In this document: piece by piece, positions 15 through 24,745 of the stretch
How the letters are laid out: every line of letters starts with the position of its first letter
Position numbering within the stretch: the first letter of the stretch is position 1
IMG/VR virus record: IMGVR_UViG_3300044673_000074
Coordinates: 1-27,766 of that record
Origin: a virus
Length of the DNA stretch: 27,766 nt
Direction: 5' to 3' (one strand)
Notes under the pieces: model-generated
The model's database searches: none
What the model saw: only the letters and a program-made list of their open reading frames with translations
Told to the model about the DNA's origin: nothing
Made by a program: the position numbers and the translations under genes

Positions 15-3000
15 ATGCTGAACGACTTCCCGAAGTACGTCGAGAATATGAGAAACTCCTACAAGCCAGCTGACGCTGCCGACAAAGCACGTGTCCAGAA
101 GCAGTGGGGCCTAAAGAAGTTTGCTGGCGAAAACTCGATTATTGCTGCGGGCGAGGCCGAGAAGCCTATGACCCCCGACACTTCTGACGTTCCACCAAAA
201 TACCTTGCTCTAGTTTCTCCTGACGACTTGACTGCAGTTATGGATTTAGTAGCGCTAGTTCCTGCATCTGCTACAAGCACTATGCCAGCAATTTACGAGC
301 GTAAAGATGGCCAGTGGGTTCAGAACAATCAGATTCTTGCTGACCTAAAGTCAGCTTCCCCACCTCCTGTGATCAAACTAGATGACAAAGAGATTCTAGA
401 CGACGTCCTCAAGCAGGTAGACGGCATTGCAACTGTGAGTGCCTCTGCTTACGATTTCGCTATCTTCTGGGAGAAAGTAGTAGAGCCTCTACTTGCAGCT
501 GGTGGCGTAGACCGCAACCGCGGCAATGCCGAGGAGCTTCGTCGCTACTGGACTCGCGGTAAGGGAGCCCTTAAAATTCGTTGGGGCACTCCTGGCGACT
601 GGACTCGCTGCGTTCGTCAGCTTTCCAAGTACATGGGTAACCGTGCAAAGGGCTACTGCCAGCTTCGTCACAAGGAAGTTACTGGTGTCTACACCGGTAG
701 CAGCAAGAACCCAGGTCGCGACAACAAGAAAAACTTCAACATTGACGAGATCTTTGCTTCCGAGGATGACTTTACTACAAAGGTTCTTGAGCAGGCAAAA
801 CTATCTGCAATGGCTGCAAACGCTAAAGAGCGTGTAGCCCTTACAGCAGCCTCTGGCGACTCATCTGGCTCTAAGTTCTACATCCCGATGTTGATCCCTG
901 AAGAAGTAGAGTCCGGCGACGGACGTAAGTTCAGAGCTAACTCTATCTCCATGCGTGAACTACCAGTCCCGCTGCTATGGCAGATTAAAACTGGTGAGGG
1001 GCACAACGGTTCTGTTGTAGTCGGACGTATCGACTATATCGAGCGTATCGAAGGCGGTATGGGCAATGCTTATGGCGTTTTCGACAACGGACCTTACGGC
1101 CGTGAAGCAGAGCGTCTAGTTAGAAATGGCTTCCTTCGTGGTGTTTCTGTAGACCTTGACCAGTTTGAGGCCAAGGAAGAGAAGAGTCCTAAGCAGGAAA
1201 TGGCAGAGGACGACGCTCAGGAGTTCGGCAAGGATAAACTCACAGTAAATAAGGCACGCATAATGGCTGCTACAATTGTAGCTAAGCCTGCATTCCAAGA
1301 GTGCACTATTTCTATTGAAGGGGACCAGGAGGAAGTCATGACCCCGGAAGACGGCGTCTATGAGGAATCTCTAGAGTTGTTTGCTGACCTAGAGCCAGTA
1401 ACTGCTTCTGGCTTCCTAAAGTCTGAAGTCCCTATGATGCCACCAGTTGACTGGTTCAAGGACCCTAAGCTCACTAAGCCAACTCCTCTGACTGTAGACG
1501 AAGATGGCCGAATTTACGGTCACATTGCTGCATGGAATGTTAGCCACATTGGTCTGCCACGTGCAACCAAGCCACCACGCTCACGTAGCAAGTACACTTA
1601 CTTCCACACCGGAGTTGTACGCTGCGAAGATGGTACAGACATGCCAGTCGGTCAGCTGACCCTTGCTGGTGGTCACGCCCCTTTGAACGCTGACGCTCGT
1701 TCTGCTGCAAAGCATTACGACGACACTGCCTCTGCTGTTGCTGACATTCACGTTGGGGAAGACCAGTACGGAATTTGGTGCGCAGGATCAATTCGCCCAG
1801 GGCTAGACGAGATGCAGATTCGCGCACTTCGTGCATCTGCTCCATCCGGTGACTGGCGTCCAATTAACGGCTCACTGGAGCTAGTTGCTATCTGCCAAGT
1901 TAACGTTCCTGGATTCCCGACTGCACGCGCAATGGTTGCATCTGGAAAGATCATGGCTCTAGTTGCTGCTGGTGCATCTCAGATGGCACTTATGAAGAGC
2001 CAGGCTGTTGGAACTTTGGTGGCTAAGTCAGACTTGCTGAGCCAGCTATCTGCTAGCGCACCTAACCTAAAGAACCGTGTCAGGGAAGCAAAGAAGCGCC
2101 TTCGTGAAGCAAACCTAGAGGCAATCACCGCTAGTGCTTCACAGATGCGCGAGAAAGCTCTTATTGCAGCTGCTGTAGCTGAGCTTGCAAAGATCTCCAC
2201 CGAAGAGCGCATGGCTCTTGCTAAGGAGGGTAAGGCTCTGTCAGACGGTGCCTACCCAATTCGAAACGTTGAAGATCTTAAGAATGCAATTCAGGCTTAT
2301 GGTCGCTCAAAGCCATCAGAGCGTAAGGAAGTTAGAAAGCACATCATCAAGCGTGCTCGTCAGCTAAAGAAGTCTGACCTGATTCCTGCAGAGTGGACGA
2401 CAGCTGCTTCTATGGAGGCAGCCCAGACTGTTGCGTCTCTACGAGCACGTATCGAGGCTGTAGTAGCTGCTGCTCCTGTCGAGGAGGAGATCTCTGAGGA
2501 AGAGCTAGAAAAGCTTCGTAAGGCTAAAGAAGAAGCTGACAAGCAGACCGAAGAAGAGATCAAAGCCGCCGAGGAAGTACGAGCAAATCGAGGCAACCTA
2601 CCAGAGCGCGACGAAGAAGGTCGCATCAAGTACGTTTCTGGAGTGAACCAGCCTCGTGATGCTAAGGGCAAGTACCGCAAGGTTCTAGCTCGTCTAAAGC
2701 AGGACCTAGGTGTTGCTGGTCTCTCTCGCGCACTCAAGAAGGTAGAAGAAGCCGAGAACCTCGACTTCGCGGGAGACTACGCGGCTTCTGCTGGCGCTAG
2801 CTCAGAGCTTCTAAGCATGATTGACCGTCTAGACACTAAAGCTCTGAACCCAGAGGCTCTAGAAAATGTTCGACTAACTGCAGCCGAGCTAGGAAAGACT
2901 ATTGCCAACCTTCCACTGCCATTCGGCAAGGAAGCTTCAAAAATTAGATTTAGCGATCTACCAGCTGGACTCAAGGACCTCATCGATTCGATGATTACTC

Positions 3001-3137
3001 GAGTTGAGTCAAAGATCGGTAAAGAGGACGCAGACATTGCCACTAAGAGTCTGAAGTCCTACATGTCGGGGGCTGACCTCTACTCTCAGGGTGAAGTTCA
3101 GTCTGAGATGAGCAAGCTCCTCCGACTCCTTACCTAA
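15..3137 (+). CDS. Capsid maturation protease, large multidomain protein (possibly 5' partial)
   Basis: Cleaves the capsid precursor during head assembly. Residues about 320-390 match the HK97 prohead protease (S78) pattern: candidate catalytic His330 (GEGHNGS) and Ser378 (GVSVDL) are 48 residues apart, close to the HK97 spacing. Upstream, residues about 170-230 form a basic Trp/Arg-rich domain (WGTPGDWTRCVRQL) common in actinophage proteases. Residues about 488-652 form a second protease-like region (YGHIAAW, GGHAPL, SGDWRPINGS). Residues about 743-793 carry the basic helical motif YPIRNVEDLKNAI. The C-terminus is a charged helical, scaffold-like stretch. The first ATG has AGGA ten bases upstream, but the frame is open to the window edge (GAA ATT CAG CTC precede the ATG), so the true start may lie outside. 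The major capsid gene follows directly, which fits the role. At 1040 residues it is far longer than the roughly 225-residue HK97 protease. Confidence 0.85.
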   Translation: MLNDFPKYVENMRNSYKPADAADKARVQKQWGLKKFAGENSIIAAGEAEKPMTPDTSDVPPKYLALVSPDDLTAVMDLVALVPASATSTMPAIYERKDGQWVQNNQILADLKSASPPPVIKLDDKEILDDVLKQVDGIATVSASAYDFAIFWEKVVEPLLAAGGVDRNRGNAEELRRYWTRGKGALKIRWGTPGDWTRCVRQLSKYMGNRAKGYCQLRHKEVTGVYTGSSKNPGRDNKKNFNIDEIFASEDDFTTKVLEQAKLSAMAANAKERVALTAASGDSSGSKFYIPMLIPEEVESGDGRKFRANSISMRELPVPLLWQIKTGEGHNGSVVVGRIDYIERIEGGMGNAYGVFDNGPYGREAERLVRNGFLRGVSVDLDQFEAKEEKSPKQEMAEDDAQEFGKDKLTVNKARIMAATIVAKPAFQECTISIEGDQEEVMTPEDGVYEESLELFADLEPVTASGFLKSEVPMMPPVDWFKDPKLTKPTPLTVDEDGRIYGHIAAWNVSHIGLPRATKPPRSRSKYTYFHTGVVRCEDGTDMPVGQLTLAGGHAPLNADARSAAKHYDDTASAVADIHVGEDQYGIWCAGSIRPGLDEMQIRALRASAPSGDWRPINGSLELVAICQVNVPGFPTARAMVASGKIMALVAAGASQMALMKSQAVGTLVAKSDLLSQLSASAPNLKNRVREAKKRLREANLEAITASASQMREKALIAAAVAELAKISTEERMALAKEGKALSDGAYPIRNVEDLKNAIQAYGRSKPSERKEVRKHIIKRARQLKKSDLIPAEWTTAASMEAAQTVASLRARIEAVVAAAPVEEEISEEELEKLRKAKEEADKQTEEEIKAAEEVRANRGNLPERDEEGRIKYVSGVNQPRDAKGKYRKVLARLKQDLGVAGLSRALKKVEEAENLDFAGDYAASAGASSELLSMIDRLDTKALNPEALENVRLTAAELGKTIANLPLPFGKEASKIRFSDLPAGLKDLIDSMITRVESKIGKEDADIATKSLKSYMSGADLYSQGEVQSEMSKLLRLLT

Positions 3138-9871: not shown

Positions 9872-10228
9872 ATGAATAAAGGACACAAATTGAGCTCTAG
9901 ATATAAAGACTTTGGTGCTGGTCAGGATACTGAAAAAGACCCTATTGTTTTTGCTTTGCACGGTGAAGAGTTCACCTGCCTACCTGTAATCCAAGGTAAG
10001 ACTCTAATGGATCTAGTGACTCGCTCTCAGTCGAAAGATCCAGTCGAGGCTATGGCTGTAGTTAACGACTTTTTTGACAAGATTCTTGTCGAAGAGAGTT
10101 TAGAGCGATTCAACAATCTTCTAGAGGACAAGAATCGAATCGTAACCATGGAAACTCTTGCAGATGTTATTTCTTGGCTAATTGAGGAGTACTCTGCACG
10201 CCCAAATCAGCAGCCAGAGGAATCCTAA
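9872..10228 (+). CDS. Tail assembly chaperone, upstream frame (gpG-like)
   Basis: 118 residues, mostly helical and acidic in its second half (VEAMAVVNDFFDKILVEESLERF split over helices). It sits directly before the tape measure gene and ends at a -1 frameshift site, the hallmark of the G/GT chaperones that hold the tape measure protein while the tail tube is built. ATG at 9872 has no clear ribosome-binding site. A TTG at 9890 has AAAGGA six bases upstream and may be the real start, giving 112 residues. Sequence identity among such chaperones is low, so the call rests on position, size and the frameshift signal. Confidence 0.85.
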   Translation: MNKGHKLSSRYKDFGAGQDTEKDPIVFALHGEEFTCLPVIQGKTLMDLVTRSQSKDPVEAMAVVNDFFDKILVEESLERFNNLLEDKNRIVTMETLADVISWLIEEYSARPNQQPEES

Positions 10229-10249
10229 TCTGGGCGGATGACCTCTGGC
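10201..10249 (+). promoter_or_regulatory. Programmed -1 ribosomal frameshift signal (CCCAAAT plus stem-loop)
   Basis: The heptamer C CCA AAT (10201-10207) is in the correct phase for the upstream frame (codons CCA AAT). Five bases later, GCCAGAGG (10213-10220) pairs perfectly with CCTCTGGC (10242-10249). ATCC/GGAT inside the loop can extend the stem. The -1 frame is open only from 10186 (after a TGA at 10183), and the zero frame stops at 10228, so the shift must happen in this 43-base stretch. This is the only heptamer in it that fits. Confidence 0.93.
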
Positions 10250-10614
10250 CATATGTGAACGGTAAAGCCTTGGCAAACGGAATTAAACTACTAGAAATGG
10301 AGGCAGCAGAGATGACCGACTTGCTGCACTATTTCTTTGAAGAGGATATGAGATATACCTCTGCCGAGGAAGCCGAAGCTGTAAGTGCCTATCGTACCCA
10401 ACTGTATTTGATGTATGGAAAAACATACTCGTACGGGGTATCCAGTAAGAACCAAAATGGAAAGTCATACGTACCTAAAAATGCGTCAGACGATTTTGGA
10501 TTCGAAGATCCATTGATGGCACCTACCGAGCTAAAGCCTTATGTTCCACCAACAGAGTTCAATCCTAACTCTGCTATGCCATTCGGTTCAGTGTTAGATG
10601 CACCTCTAGGCTAG
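10207..10614 (+). CDS. Tail assembly chaperone, downstream frame (gpT part of the G-T fusion)
   Basis: It has no good start of its own and is made as a fusion: codons 9872-10207 of the upstream gene, then a one-base backward slip and codons 10207-10611, giving about 247 residues (112 + 135). The first GTG in this frame is at 10255, with no ribosome-binding site. The T part contains an acidic helical segment (MEAAEMTDLLHYFFEEDM) and a Pro-rich C-terminus (MAPTELKPYVPPTEF). In other siphophages the T domain contacts tail tube subunits and the G domain contacts the tape measure. It ends seven bases before the tape measure ATG. Confidence 0.85.
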   Translation, partial: SAARGILIWADDLWPYVNGKALANGIKLLEMEAAEMTDLLHYFFEEDMRYTSAEEAEAVSAYRTQLYLMYGKTYSYGVSSKNQNGKSYVPKNASDDFGFEDPLMAPTELKPYVPPTEFNPNSAMPFGSVLDAPLG

Positions 10615-10621
10615 GCGAAAA

Positions 10622-13438
10622 ATGGCAGTTGTAGGTGAAGCGCACGTACTTGTTAAAGCTATAACAACAGGCTTTGACAAGGATCTGAGGCGACAGCTTC
10701 AAGGGATGACTGGTGCTGTCTCTTCCTCAGGTAGAGCTGCCGGTGAATCTCTAGGTAGTGCGTTTAACCGAGGCTTCAACAGGTCTGCCGGAAACGTCTT
10801 CACTAAAGTTGCTGAAGGCATTGCAACCATGGTTCCTGAAGCGGATGCCGCGAGAGTGGCATTCCGCTCTATGGTCCGTACCGGTTACACTTTGGGTACA
10901 GCTCTAACATCTGTAATTGGTGGTGTTAGCGCACTTATTGGTGGTCTAATTACCTTAGTTGGAGCTGTCGGGCAAGCCGCCCCTGCTTTGTTTGGGCTGG
11001 TAACCGCATTTGTTCAAATGCGAGTTGCAATAAGCTTGGCTCAGTTTGCTTTGGGCGGTATTGGAGCAGCCGTAAGTAGAGCTACCCAGGCTCAGGGTGG
11101 TCTAGGCGACACTCTAAAACGTGTAAATGAGCAATTCAAGCAACTAAGGCGAGACGCTGAGTCCGCTGCAATGAGCGAGAAGCGTGCAGCCCTTGAGTTG
11201 GAGAAAGCTCGCAACAACTTAGCTCGTATGCAGGACTTGCCACCAAACAACATGGCACGCCGTGAGGCTGAGCTTGCACTGGAAGAAGCTGAGCTAAACT
11301 ACCGCCAGGCTAAAGAGCGTAGCAAAGACCTAAATGATGAGCTCAAAAAAGGCAAAAAAGGCCTTATGGATGCCGCTGGCGTTGACCCATACGCTGGCCT
11401 CACTAAGAGCCAAAAGGCCTTTGCACAGTTCTTGGTAAAGCTGAATCCTAAGCTAAAAGACCTTAAAGAAGCTGTTGCATCAGGATTCTTACCTGTTCTT
11501 CAAACTCAGATCCAAAAGTTAGTTGATGAATATTTCCCTGACTTGCTAGGAAAGTTTAAAGATGTTGGAGATGCTCTAGGCCAGGGTGCTATAAACATTG
11601 CTGACAATTTCTTGGACCCTAAAACTAAGGCGGAAGTTCTTACTTTCTTCGACAACTTAACTAAGAACATCCCGACTATTGGATCGATCTTCGGTGAGAT
11701 CGGGGAAATCTTATTTAAAGTCTTTAACGATGCTGATGGAATTGCAACAAAGTTCCTAGACTTTGTGCTGAAGACTCTAGAAGACTGGAACAAGCAGCTA
11801 GACGAAGTCGGGCTGGAACAGTTCTTTGCTGACGCATATGAAACTGGATCTCAGCTATTCGGAATACTTGGAAACATCTTCAACGGTCTTGGCGACTTCT
11901 TCAAAATCCTCAAGGACAGCGGAGCTATGGACACGGTCCTAGGCTACCTAACTGACATTACAGAAGCATTCGCTGGAATTGGAGAAAACAAAGAGACCGG
12001 AAAAGCCATTGGAGACCTATTCTCTGGTCTAGCAAACAACTTTGGTCCGGTCATGAACTTCCTTGGCCAGCTCGTAACATCTTTCTTAAAGCTTGGTGCT
12101 AATCCAAACATTGGTAAGACTTTCGAGATTCTTGCTTCCCCCGAAAATGCTGCCAACTGGGACACAATCTTTAAAGCGTTCGCTGATGCAGGCCCGTCTT
12201 TGGCCACTCTAGCAACTAGCCTTGGAGAGCTTCTTGCCGGTTTTGCAGACTCTGGTGCGCCTAAAGCATTCTTTGACACACTGAACTCACTGCTTCAGCC
12301 TTTTATTGCGTTTATTCAGGACCCAAACAACAAAGCATTTGTTGACACTCTAGGTCGAATCTTTGCAGTTGTCTCCGCTATCTCCCTAGCCTTTGGTGGC
12401 CTTAAGTTTGCGTTCATGGTTCTATTTGGCAATATCGGAGCTATTTTTGGTCTTCTAGGTGGCCTAGGCACTAAAATCGGCGCAGCGTTCGAGTTCTTTA
12501 AGCCTGGTAAGGGATTTGATGGGCTACGTCTACGTATCTGGTACTTCTTTGAGGGACTTCAAAAGTTCTTTGTCGGCATTGGTGCAAAGGTTGGTCCGAT
12601 ATTCACAAAGATAGCAACTACAGTAGGCGGAGTATTCACCAGAATTGGTGGTGCAATCGGAGGATTCTTCACCAAGATTGGTGGAGTAATTCTTAATCTT
12701 GCCAGAACTATTGGTATTGGACTGAGGCTGGCTTTTGCGGCTAACCCTATTGGCTTTATCATTACAGCCATCATGATTGTGATTAGTGCCCTAACTTACT
12801 TCTTCACTCAGACCGAGATCGGTAAGCAGATTTGGGCTGGATTTACTCAGTTTGTAGAGGACTCCTTGAAGAACATCGGAGACTTCTTCAACACAATCTT
12901 TACCAACATTGCCCAGGGGTGGGAAGATACCGTTAAATTCTTCCAGTCTATTAACTTAGGCAATATCTTTAAGGGTCTATTGAATGGGATTATTGGAGCC
13001 TTTGAAGGTCTGATAAACAACATTATTATTGGATGGAATAACGGACTTCTTAAGGTAATTAATAGCTTTAAGCTAGATATTCCTCAATGGGTTCGTGATG
13101 CAGCCAAGGCAGTTGGTATGAGCTTGCCAGCTAGCTTCTCATTCAACCTACCACCTGCAAAAACACTTAGGATCCCGAGACTGGCAGACGGTGCAACTGT
13201 CATGCCTAGCCCGGGTGGCTCTATTGTTAACGTAGCTGAAGCAGGCCGACCAGAGCGTATCGAGCCGCTTGATCCAGATGGACTGTCTCAGCGCGATAAG
13301 GCAATTATTAAGGAGCTTTCTGGCGGAACTAACGGCATGACTATTAACGTTTACCCATCTGCTGGCATGGATGAGAAAGAACTAGCAGATCTAGTTTCTC
13401 GCCGCATTGCTTTCGAAATTCGTAAAGGCGTCTACTAA
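10622..13438 (+). CDS. Tape measure protein
   Basis: 938 residues; sets tail length and is threaded through the tube. Pattern seen: a Gly/Ser/Arg-rich N-terminus (SSSGRAAGESLGSAFNRGF), hydrophobic segments at about 93-137, 583-617 and 700-727 (ANPIGFIITAIMIVISALTY), a charged coiled coil at about 163-247, and repeated Phe/Gly/Asn-rich helical stretches. The C-terminus has GGSIVNVAEAGRPERIEPLD, usual in actinophage tape measures. By the usual 0.15 nm per residue this predicts a tail of roughly 140 nm. It directly follows the frameshifted chaperones. No lysozyme or peptidase motif was recognised. The stop overlaps the next ATG by one base. Confidence 0.95.
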   Translation: MAVVGEAHVLVKAITTGFDKDLRRQLQGMTGAVSSSGRAAGESLGSAFNRGFNRSAGNVFTKVAEGIATMVPEADAARVAFRSMVRTGYTLGTALTSVIGGVSALIGGLITLVGAVGQAAPALFGLVTAFVQMRVAISLAQFALGGIGAAVSRATQAQGGLGDTLKRVNEQFKQLRRDAESAAMSEKRAALELEKARNNLARMQDLPPNNMARREAELALEEAELNYRQAKERSKDLNDELKKGKKGLMDAAGVDPYAGLTKSQKAFAQFLVKLNPKLKDLKEAVASGFLPVLQTQIQKLVDEYFPDLLGKFKDVGDALGQGAINIADNFLDPKTKAEVLTFFDNLTKNIPTIGSIFGEIGEILFKVFNDADGIATKFLDFVLKTLEDWNKQLDEVGLEQFFADAYETGSQLFGILGNIFNGLGDFFKILKDSGAMDTVLGYLTDITEAFAGIGENKETGKAIGDLFSGLANNFGPVMNFLGQLVTSFLKLGANPNIGKTFEILASPENAANWDTIFKAFADAGPSLATLATSLGELLAGFADSGAPKAFFDTLNSLLQPFIAFIQDPNNKAFVDTLGRIFAVVSAISLAFGGLKFAFMVLFGNIGAIFGLLGGLGTKIGAAFEFFKPGKGFDGLRLRIWYFFEGLQKFFVGIGAKVGPIFTKIATTVGGVFTRIGGAIGGFFTKIGGVILNLARTIGIGLRLAFAANPIGFIITAIMIVISALTYFFTQTEIGKQIWAGFTQFVEDSLKNIGDFFNTIFTNIAQGWEDTVKFFQSINLGNIFKGLLNGIIGAFEGLINNIIIGWNNGLLKVINSFKLDIPQWVRDAAKAVGMSLPASFSFNLPPAKTLRIPRLADGATVMPSPGGSIVNVAEAGRPERIEPLDPDGLSQRDKAIIKELSGGTNGMTINVYPSAGMDEKELADLVSRRIAFEIRKGVY

Positions 13439-22933: not shown

Positions 22934-24745
22934 GTGCCAGTATATGTAGAGCTCGATGAGACGGGCGAACGTATCCAAATCAATGCCGAGTGGCGTTTGA
23001 AGGAAATTTGTAGAGCCTTGCCTGGCTCTTCCTACAGCAGCAGAGAGCAGATGTGGAGTGTTCCCGTGTCTTGGACTGGGTGCCTAGCTCTTCGCTCTAC
23101 TTTTAAGGCAGAGCTTCAAATTGGACCTCGCCTTGCAGAGTGGGCTAAGAATGAGCGAGCCAATCGTATTGACCCAAGCAACCTCCTTAGGGATGTAGAA
23201 ATTGCAGAAGATGGCGATGAAGACTTGTTCCCTCACCAGCGAGCTGGTGTTAAGTTTCTGACTACAGCTAGGCGTGCACTACTTGCTGATGAGCCTGGTC
23301 TAGGTAAAACCGCTCAGGCAATTCGATCTCTGAAGAGATTGCACGACTCGGGCGAGGAGATTTTTCCTGCACTTATTGTCTGTCCAAACACTCTAAAGAA
23401 GAACTGGGAGCGTGAGTTCGATAAGTGGTGGCCTGGAGTAAATGTCTCGGTAATCAATGGTAGTGCTGTTCAACGTAAGAAGGCTTTTGAGGATCAGGCT
23501 GACGTCTACGTCATTAACTGGGAATCACTGAGAACCCACTCAAAGCTAGTAACTTATGGCTCTATGGCATTGGCAAAGTGTAACGACTGCGGTGGTCACG
23601 ACTCAAAGATTACTCCTGCAAGATGCGAGGTACATACTCGTGAGCTAAATAACATTGACTTTAAGGCTGTAATCGCTGATGAGATCCACCGTTCAAAGGA
23701 TCCTCGCTCGAAGCAGACTAGAGCATTGTGGGCGGCTACTGATAAAGCAGATATTCGTTTTGCTCTCACGGGAACACCTATTGCAAACGATGTAGTAGAT
23801 TTGTGGCCTATTTTGCACTGGCTAGACCCTAAGGAGTGGCCAAGCAAGACCAAATGGATTGATCGCTACGTAAACACCATGATGAATGCTTTTGGTGGTC
23901 TTATGGTGATTGGCCTAAAGCCAGAAATGACTGACGAGTTTTATGCCGGAATTCATCCTCGCATGCGTCGCATGCTCAAGCAGAAGGTGCTTCCTTGGCT
24001 ACCCCCTGTAATCACCGAGCGCCGCGATGTAGAGATGGGTGCCAAGCAAGAGAAAGCTTACAGACAGATGGCAGAAAATATGATTGCCCTTCTGGAAAAA
24101 GACACCGAAGACTTTTCCGGTGAAGCCATCGTGGCACCTAATCCGCTAACGCAGGCGTTACGTTTGTTGCAGTTTGCTAGCTCTTACGCCCAGATTGAGA
24201 TTACAGAGACCGGCGAAGAAAAAGTCACTTTGTCAGACCCATCCTGTAAGGTCGATGCTCTGATAGATGACATGAAGAATGGCGATTTCGGTGACGACTC
24301 AGTAGCAGTCTGCGCCGTATCTCGCCAGCTGATTGAGATTCTTAGTGCTCGCCTAACTAAAGAAGGTATTGCTCATGGTCTAATTACTGGCTCAATTAGT
24401 GCTGATGATCGCCAGCAGGCCATCGATGACTTCCAGTCGGGTAAAACTAAGTGGATTCTTTTCACCGCTCAGGCTGGTGGTGTAGGTGTCACCTTGACAG
24501 CTGCAAGAAGATTGATTATGCTTCAAAGACCATGGTCTCTTGTTGACTACAAGCAGGCACTAGACCGTGTCCACAGAATTGGTTCGGAGGTGCACGACTC
24601 TGTGATTATCACTGACTATGTGACCGACGGAACTATCGAAGAGCGTGTAATTCAGGCTCTAGATGTTAAATCAGAAAACTTCGAGGAAATTGTTCGAGAC
24701 AAGGACAAGTTGCTCGAGATCCTAAAGAAAGGGGCAAAAAAGTAA
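22934..24745 (+). CDS. SNF2-type DNA helicase / translocase
   Basis: 603 residues, superfamily 2. Motif I is DEPGLGKT (Asp119 to Thr126), motif II DEIH (249-252), motif III LTGTPI, and the C-terminal lobe has FTAQAGGVGVTLTAARRLIM and QALDRVHRIGS (Asp544 to Ser550), which is typical of SNF2/SMARCAL1-like proteins. Residues 1-70 (MWSVPVSWTGCLALRS) resemble a HARP-type DNA-binding start. A Cys/His cluster (Cys216, Cys219, Cys231, His234) between motifs Ia and II could bind zinc. Start is GTG at 22934 with GGAGG four bases upstream. It probably remodels forks or anneals strands. The stop overlaps the exonuclease ATG by one base. Confidence 0.9.
   Translation: MPVYVELDETGERIQINAEWRLKEICRALPGSSYSSREQMWSVPVSWTGCLALRSTFKAELQIGPRLAEWAKNERANRIDPSNLLRDVEIAEDGDEDLFPHQRAGVKFLTTARRALLADEPGLGKTAQAIRSLKRLHDSGEEIFPALIVCPNTLKKNWEREFDKWWPGVNVSVINGSAVQRKKAFEDQADVYVINWESLRTHSKLVTYGSMALAKCNDCGGHDSKITPARCEVHTRELNNIDFKAVIADEIHRSKDPRSKQTRALWAATDKADIRFALTGTPIANDVVDLWPILHWLDPKEWPSKTKWIDRYVNTMMNAFGGLMVIGLKPEMTDEFYAGIHPRMRRMLKQKVLPWLPPVITERRDVEMGAKQEKAYRQMAENMIALLEKDTEDFSGEAIVAPNPLTQALRLLQFASSYAQIEITETGEEKVTLSDPSCKVDALIDDMKNGDFGDDSVAVCAVSRQLIEILSARLTKEGIAHGLITGSISADDRQQAIDDFQSGKTKWILFTAQAGGVGVTLTAARRLIMLQRPWSLVDYKQALDRVHRIGSEVHDSVIITDYVTDGTIEERVIQALDVKSENFEEIVRDKDKLLEILKKGAKK

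Follow-up and report, generated by a model that had tools for sequence, protein, structure and literature searches.

A putative −1 programmed ribosomal frameshift in the tail assembly chaperone genes of an actinophage: constant first slippery codon, interchangeable second codon and a hairpin that usually moves along

Comparison with related phages makes it almost certain that the G and T tail assembly chaperone genes of an actinophage are joined by −1 programmed ribosomal frameshifting. The genes lie in a virus record of 27,766 bases with a GC content of 48%, which was analysed over its whole length (the window). By itself, the predicted element in the window is an ordinary, well conserved tail-chaperone frameshift of a long-known kind. 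What appears to be new is found at the level of the family, where the first slippery codon is constant, the second is interchangeable, and the spacing of the downstream hairpin usually switches along with it.

The genes of the window run from a portal/protease-like gene through the major head protein gene and head-tail and tail genes to G and T. Downstream of T follow the tape measure gene, distal and minor tail genes, and genes for a DNA polymerase, a helicase, an exonuclease and a Sak4-like protein. The tape measure gene was identified by PHROG tape-measure matches (E 5e-25) and by tblastn matches to annotated tape measure proteins; the distance from the T stop to its start is 8 nt. A single ORF of 1040 aa at positions 15-3137 has matches to portal as well as to head maturation protease families (PHROG 859, 18402). 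The closest named phages are the Microbacterium phages Cece, Pumpernickel, Big4, Zooman and A3Wally, and Actinomycetia phage DSL-LC01 from a lake; the host is likely to be found among aquatic actinobacteria. A profile scan of prokaryote genomes with T gave zero confirmed relatives, and T was thus not detected as a prophage gene. No tRNA genes were found in the window, so a phage tRNAPro was not seen in this fragment. The features of the G/T region are as follows.

9872-10228, plus strand: gene G (tail assembly chaperone), ORF with stop codon TAA at 10226-10228
9878-9883, plus strand: Shine-Dalgarno-like AAAGGA for G, 6 nt from TTG 9890
10184-10189, plus strand: Shine-Dalgarno-like GAGGAG, possible upstream stimulator, 11 nt before the heptamer
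10186-10614, plus strand: T frame (−1), coding after the shift from 10207 to 10611, stop codon at 10612-10614
10201-10207, plus strand: slippery heptamer C_CCA_AAT (CCC AAA in the −1 frame; zero-frame codons CGC CCA AAT)
10208-10212, plus strand: spacer CAGCA, 5 nt, between heptamer and stem
10213-10220, plus strand: stem 5' arm GCCAGAGG, pairing with 10242-10249
10222-10225, plus strand: arm ATCC of a possible inner helix, pairing with GGAT at 10237-10240
10242-10249, plus strand: stem 3' arm CCTCTGGC, wholly outside G and inside T
10622-13438, plus strand: tape measure protein gene

In the proposed mechanism, most ribosomes would translate G and terminate at 10226. A minority would be held up by the stem (10213-10249) and slip back one base on C_CCA_AAT, with tRNAPro and tRNAAsn re-pairing with CCC and AAA in a presumed tandem slip. 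Slipped ribosomes would continue in the T frame, at a presumably low frequency, and make a G-T fusion protein 241-247 residues long. If what is known of G and GT in phage lambda (PMC5009743) applies here, the tape measure protein would be coated by G, and recruitment of the tail tube protein would fall to the T part. At the level of the family, the invariant part is the tetramer C.CCN. Where the second codon can re-pair (CCCAAAT, CCCGGAA), the stem stands 5 nt past the heptamer; with second codons unable to re-pair, as in CCCTACN, CCCGACT and others, it is usually extended toward the site, most often to 2 nt, and so begins about 5 nt after C_CCN.

The sequence of the window bears out the geometry described in an earlier note on this DNA. 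The heptamer CCCAAAT is exactly in phase, and the frames overlap by 43 nt, the −1 frame being open from 10186 and G ending at 10226-10228. C_CCA_AAT has the X_XXZ_ZZN form, in which both tRNAs are able to re-pair, and two overlapping frames, the second in −1, lie directly upstream of the tape measure gene as in G/GT pairs. Eight perfect base pairs (10213-10220/10242-10249) begin 5 nt after the heptamer, the A at 10212 (base 12 from the heptamer start) blocking any extension of the stem toward the site, and the loop can indeed pair further through ATCC and GGAT. The minimum free energy (MFE) of the region downstream of the heptamer is −19.5 kcal/mol. Among shuffled sequences, 122 of 2000 reached the stem length and 84 of 2000 the MFE, so that the evidence from the window alone is modest. 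It is conservation across 194 distinct relatives, drawn from the best 80 per scan, that turns this modest local evidence into a decisive case.

Upstream of the slip site, the duplex predicted with the anti-Shine-Dalgarno sequence reaches −5.65 kcal/mol over 97 representatives; from synonymous codons one would expect −3.92 kcal/mol, and control windows give −2.26 kcal/mol. GAGGAG resembles the upstream stimulator of E. coli dnaX, but an element of this kind is absent from some family members and is thus not universal.

In total, 21 in-phase XXXYYYZ heptamers occur in the window. Besides CCCAAAT, one leads into a long −1 frame: AAAAAAG at 24736-24742, located just 5' of the stop of the helicase-like ORF and reading into the exonuclease-like ORF. 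As the latter starts at its own ATG (24745), ordinary translational coupling is likelier there, and the site was set aside as a second frameshift candidate.

G comprises 118 aa if translated from ATG 9872 and 112 aa from TTG 9890. The TTG is more likely to be the start, because it is preceded by AAAGGA and aligns with the Met of relatives. The fusion length of about 247 residues given in the earlier note is obtained only from ATG 9872; the likelier start gives 241 aa. The identification of G as a tail chaperone, also made there, is upheld by synteny, G standing directly before the tape measure gene, by identities of 25-53% with annotated chaperones, whose names are database names and not functional tests, and by a weak fold similarity. 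The highest identity (53%) is to Microbacterium phage Cece gp78, a 'tail assembly chaperone'. Pfam Phage_TAC_16 was matched by three of 17 family members (best E 5e-4), and searches of PHROGs and Pfam with the window's own G and T gave no match. An AlphaFold (AF2) model of G (pLDDT 81) had its three best fold matches by VIA-align with 3FGX (Z 7.5), 5IR0 (Z 5.1) and 2OB9 (Z 4.5), the last being the HK97 chaperone, which ranked third among 444 chains. Such similarities, with Z between 4.5 and 7.5, are only suggestive, and Foldseek returned nothing below E 0.001.

Profile scans of IMG/VR detected more than 500 confirmed relatives of G; the best 80 from each scan were taken further. After removal of duplicates, 181 distinct shift regions were obtained, and 194 with the last scans. 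T is open in the −1 frame beyond G in every one of these best-scoring relatives (181/181, then 194/194). T opens no more than 3 nt 5' of CCC in several members, and the G stop of one member (L164) lies 3 nt past the heptamer. Because both ends of the overlap vary and thereby bound the site, the shift could be mapped to CGC-CCN-NNN with no motif assumed; given a single homologous site throughout the family, it must be there.

The T residues W11, W16 and G21 after the shift are nearly invariant, while the neighbouring non-Trp codons have mostly free third bases, and the conserved residues stand beyond the G stop in nearly all members. No ATG, GTG or TTG precedes T codon 21 in 117 of 146 distinct members; in these, only ribosomes arriving from G can read the conserved stretch. 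The claim that the downstream frame has no start of its own nearly holds for the window. There is an in-frame GTG at 10255; it lies within the conserved motif, and no ribosome-binding site was seen before it.

In public records, G and T are annotated as two separate genes with no joined feature in eight phages: Cece (gp78/79), Pumpernickel (gp92/93), Big4 (84/85), Zooman (80/81), A3Wally (95/96), DSL-LC01 (WJZ48522/WJZ48523), Atuin (83/84) and Mimi (88/89). All eight have both frames in this −1 relation, the site being CCCGGAA or CCCTACG, and the conserved part of T begins upstream of most annotated starts.

The strongest constraint was found at the Arg codon preceding the slippery Pro codon. 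In the 194 relatives from the best 80 per scan it is CGC in 191 and CGT in three. CGC makes up 245 of 1365 Arg codons (18%) elsewhere in the same ORFs and precedes Pro in 26 of 193 cases in other genes of the same loci. As CGC is the sole Arg codon with a final C, the constraint acts on C.CCN. This sequence allows tRNAPro to re-pair with CCC after a backward slip, and the three CGT cases still permit a G.U pair.

The remainder of the motif is variable. Among the same 194 sequences, CCCGGAA was found 60 times, CCCAAAT 46, CCCTACG 45, CCCTACC 8, CCCTACA 8, CCCGACT 6 and CCCGAAC 5 times, in addition to rarer motifs. On CCCAAAT, conventional re-pairing is open to the second tRNA as well. On CCCGGAA, tRNAGlu can re-pair via a G.U pair, as noted by the authors of PRFect (PMC10885494). 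On CCCTACN, CCCGACT and the like, re-pairing of the second tRNA would be impossible by the base-pairing argument; this concerns about 86 of the 194 sites, mostly CCCTACN. Loss of the heptamer from relatives that have both frames had been named in the earlier note as grounds for giving up the signal, and taken literally such loss is what was observed, as CCCAAAT is kept in only about a quarter of relatives (46/194). The nearest relatives of the window keep it, and the loss limits what can be claimed for the family but leaves the claim on the window intact. The mechanism survives because C.CCN is kept (191/194), the rest is swapped, and the hairpin spacing usually changes along. Heptamer (X_XXZ_ZZN) and tetramer (Z_ZZN) motifs thus seem to alternate in one gene family.

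Further support comes from the stem, whose conservation in relatives the earlier note had wanted checked. Its first six pairs are 93% paired over the unselected set of 146 distinct sequences, compared with 24-51% when the pairing is slid, and are present in all 42 distinct CCCAAAT sequences, as expected of a conserved structure. In an alignment of 81 stem-bearing sequences, from which members already known to lack the stem had been left out, pairing in the outer helix amounts to 94.4%, and none of 500 shuffles reaches the covariation score. The inner 4-bp helix (ATCC/GGAT) is paired in 53% of cells of this alignment; it is not conserved and was rejected as a necessary part of the signal. Most stem pairs are invariant or vary on one side and few change on both, so that support for the stem rests mainly on synonymous constraint; covariation is modest because the stem bases also code. 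Leu15 of T, in the 3' arm and outside G, is encoded by CTC in 113 of 126 sequences, compared with 15% of Leu codons elsewhere in T. Ala5 is GCC in 124 of 127 compared with 15% elsewhere (199/1302), dual coding in the overlap also contributing to this figure. The stem is lacking in 20 divergent members of the 146. In the CCCGGAA class, 11 members, Microbacterium phages included, are without it and have other possible hairpins only. A separate 8-bp hairpin, located 3 nt 3' of CCCTACG, is present in the Arthrobacter-phage type (Atuin, Mimi). An Rfam search around the slip site gave nothing credible.

Position of the stem and identity of the second codon are associated. Among the relatives from the best 80 per scan, the stem is extended toward the site in none of 96 members in which the second codon re-pairs, and in 61 of 75 in which it does not, 14 of the latter having no extension. 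Of the extended stems, 48 are longer by exactly three pairs, the last being G.U, which leaves 2 nt. A move of about 3 nt equals one codon, and the stem thus stands about 5 nt past the last re-pairing codon (AAT or CCN, depending on the class). The first codon differs as well: non-re-pairing relatives are mostly C_CCY (72/86) and re-pairing ones nearly all C_CCR (106/108), with C_CCG in 14 non-re-pairing members as exceptions to the C_CCY trend. Such a split fits the tetramer activities measured in E. coli, where C_CCU and C_CCC shift, C_CCA and C_CCG barely do so, and the stimulator is 5 nt past the tetramer (PMC4066793).

As phylogeny inflates raw counts, independent pairs were compared on separate paths of a tree built from concatenated G, T, the upstream gene and the tape-measure N-terminus (171 rows). 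This tree replaced a smaller one (94 rows) that had too few supported branches and gave two pairs. With supported branches, there were six pairs, of which about five agree, none oppose and one is a tie. With all branches, there were ten pairs, of which about nine agree, none oppose and one is a tie (sign p 0.004). The evidence for a joint switch of motif and stem is accordingly good but not final, some branches being weak and the association having been noticed before testing. We lean slightly towards the view that one orthologous element switched about ten times between heptamer and tetramer slippage, the hairpin register moving by about one codon. In that event the hairpin would be placed relative to the last re-pairing codon.

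Four other explanations were weighed. Independent translation of T by re-initiation or coupling, e.g. at GTG 10255, with no fusion made, would agree with that in-frame codon and with the separate T gene in most public annotations of relatives. It is very improbable, since the conserved motif AAR..L..W..DLWPY.NGKA precedes every common start codon in 117 of 146 members, the GTG lacks a visible ribosome-binding site, and CGC (191/194) and the stem would be left unexplained. The chance that heptamer and stem are a functionless coincidence is vanishingly small: the modest local statistics (stem reached by 6%, MFE by 4% of shuffles) leave room for it, but conserved frames in 194/194 and CGC in 191/194 of the relatives from the best 80 per scan contradict it. 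A −1 frameshift is the reading strongly supported by the comparison, on grounds of phase, stem, conservation, codon constraint and synteny.

The remaining two explanations concern how and where the slip occurs. It is doubtful that even in the window only tRNAPro slips, on the tetramer C_CCA, so that the fusion residue after Pro would be Lys (AAA) and not Asn. C.CCN is the sole part kept throughout the family, and slippage of one tRNA while the A site is vacant has been described as a −1 pathway (PMC7282821). However, C_CCA is a barely active tetramer in E. coli, where C_CCU and C_CCC are active (PMC4066793), and members with CCA always have AAT and a 5-nt spacer (46/46), as expected if the whole heptamer works. 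A shift of the CCCTACN relatives elsewhere in the overlap, with CGC kept for codon or peptide context, is quite unlikely. Many of them do have a wider overlap, the G stop being mostly 33 nt past the site, but in some CCCTACG members T opens just 3 nt 5' of CCC, and in others G ends 12 nt past it. Within the interval so bounded C.CCN is the only conserved stretch of slip-prone bases, and before Pro codons in other genes there is no preference for CGC (26/193).

The closest known system is G-GT of phage lambda, one case of the −1 frameshift conserved among tail assembly chaperones of long-tailed phages (Xu, Hendrix and Duda 2004, per PMC5009743), with the same overlapping gene pair before the tape measure gene. 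Both have a −1 shift on a heptamer near the end of G (PMC5009743), GGGAAAG in lambda and CCCAAAT in the window. In lambda the short protein is made in excess over the long fusion (PMC5009743), and a similar ratio may be expected here. Unlike the lambda-type chaperones, the window proteins match no described family by sequence, and the stem is conserved in the family of the window. Compared with X_XXZ_ZZN heptamers in general (Sharma et al. 2014, PMC4066793), C_CCA_AAT is an exact fit, with a stem after a 5-nt spacer; CCCAAAT is not among the most efficient motifs named for E. coli, while C_CC.A_AA.G is (PMC4066793), and many relatives of the window leave the heptamer pattern. The CCCTACN relatives share C_CCU, and a stem about 5 nt past it when extended by 3 bp, with the Z_ZZN tetramers of IS1/IS3-family elements (PMC4066793). 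Known Z_ZZN cases are mainly transposase genes with A_AAG or U_UUY (PMC4066793), whereas here tetramer and heptamer forms seem to alternate in one orthologous phage gene. No description of C_CCT frameshifting in phage tail chaperones was found in the openly accessible literature. CCCGGAA, the commonest site in the wider family, is identical to the 'threetwotwo' motif of PRFect, which its authors call hypothetical and annotation-derived (PMC10885494). CCCTACN matches none of PRFect's eight backward motifs, judged by motif names (PMC10885494).

If these readings hold, annotation would have to be corrected, in that G and T of the window would yield a fusion, as would probably those of at least eight public phage genomes in which T is annotated separately. 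The family provides several hundred natural variants in which the first slippery codon is kept, the second is swapped and the hairpin is usually moved to match. They may serve as matched constructs for one- versus two-tRNA slippage and for the reference point of the stem distance. Should the joint switch be real, the family would be an experiment of nature on the ribosomal site of −1 slippage. The counts also suggest that frameshift finders requiring XXXYYYZ miss a large part of tail chaperone frameshifts. Finally, the Gordonia phages GMA2 and Phendrix, which carry more distant G homologues, have no Arg-Pro site and show in-phase GGGAAAC and AAAAAAA heptamers instead.
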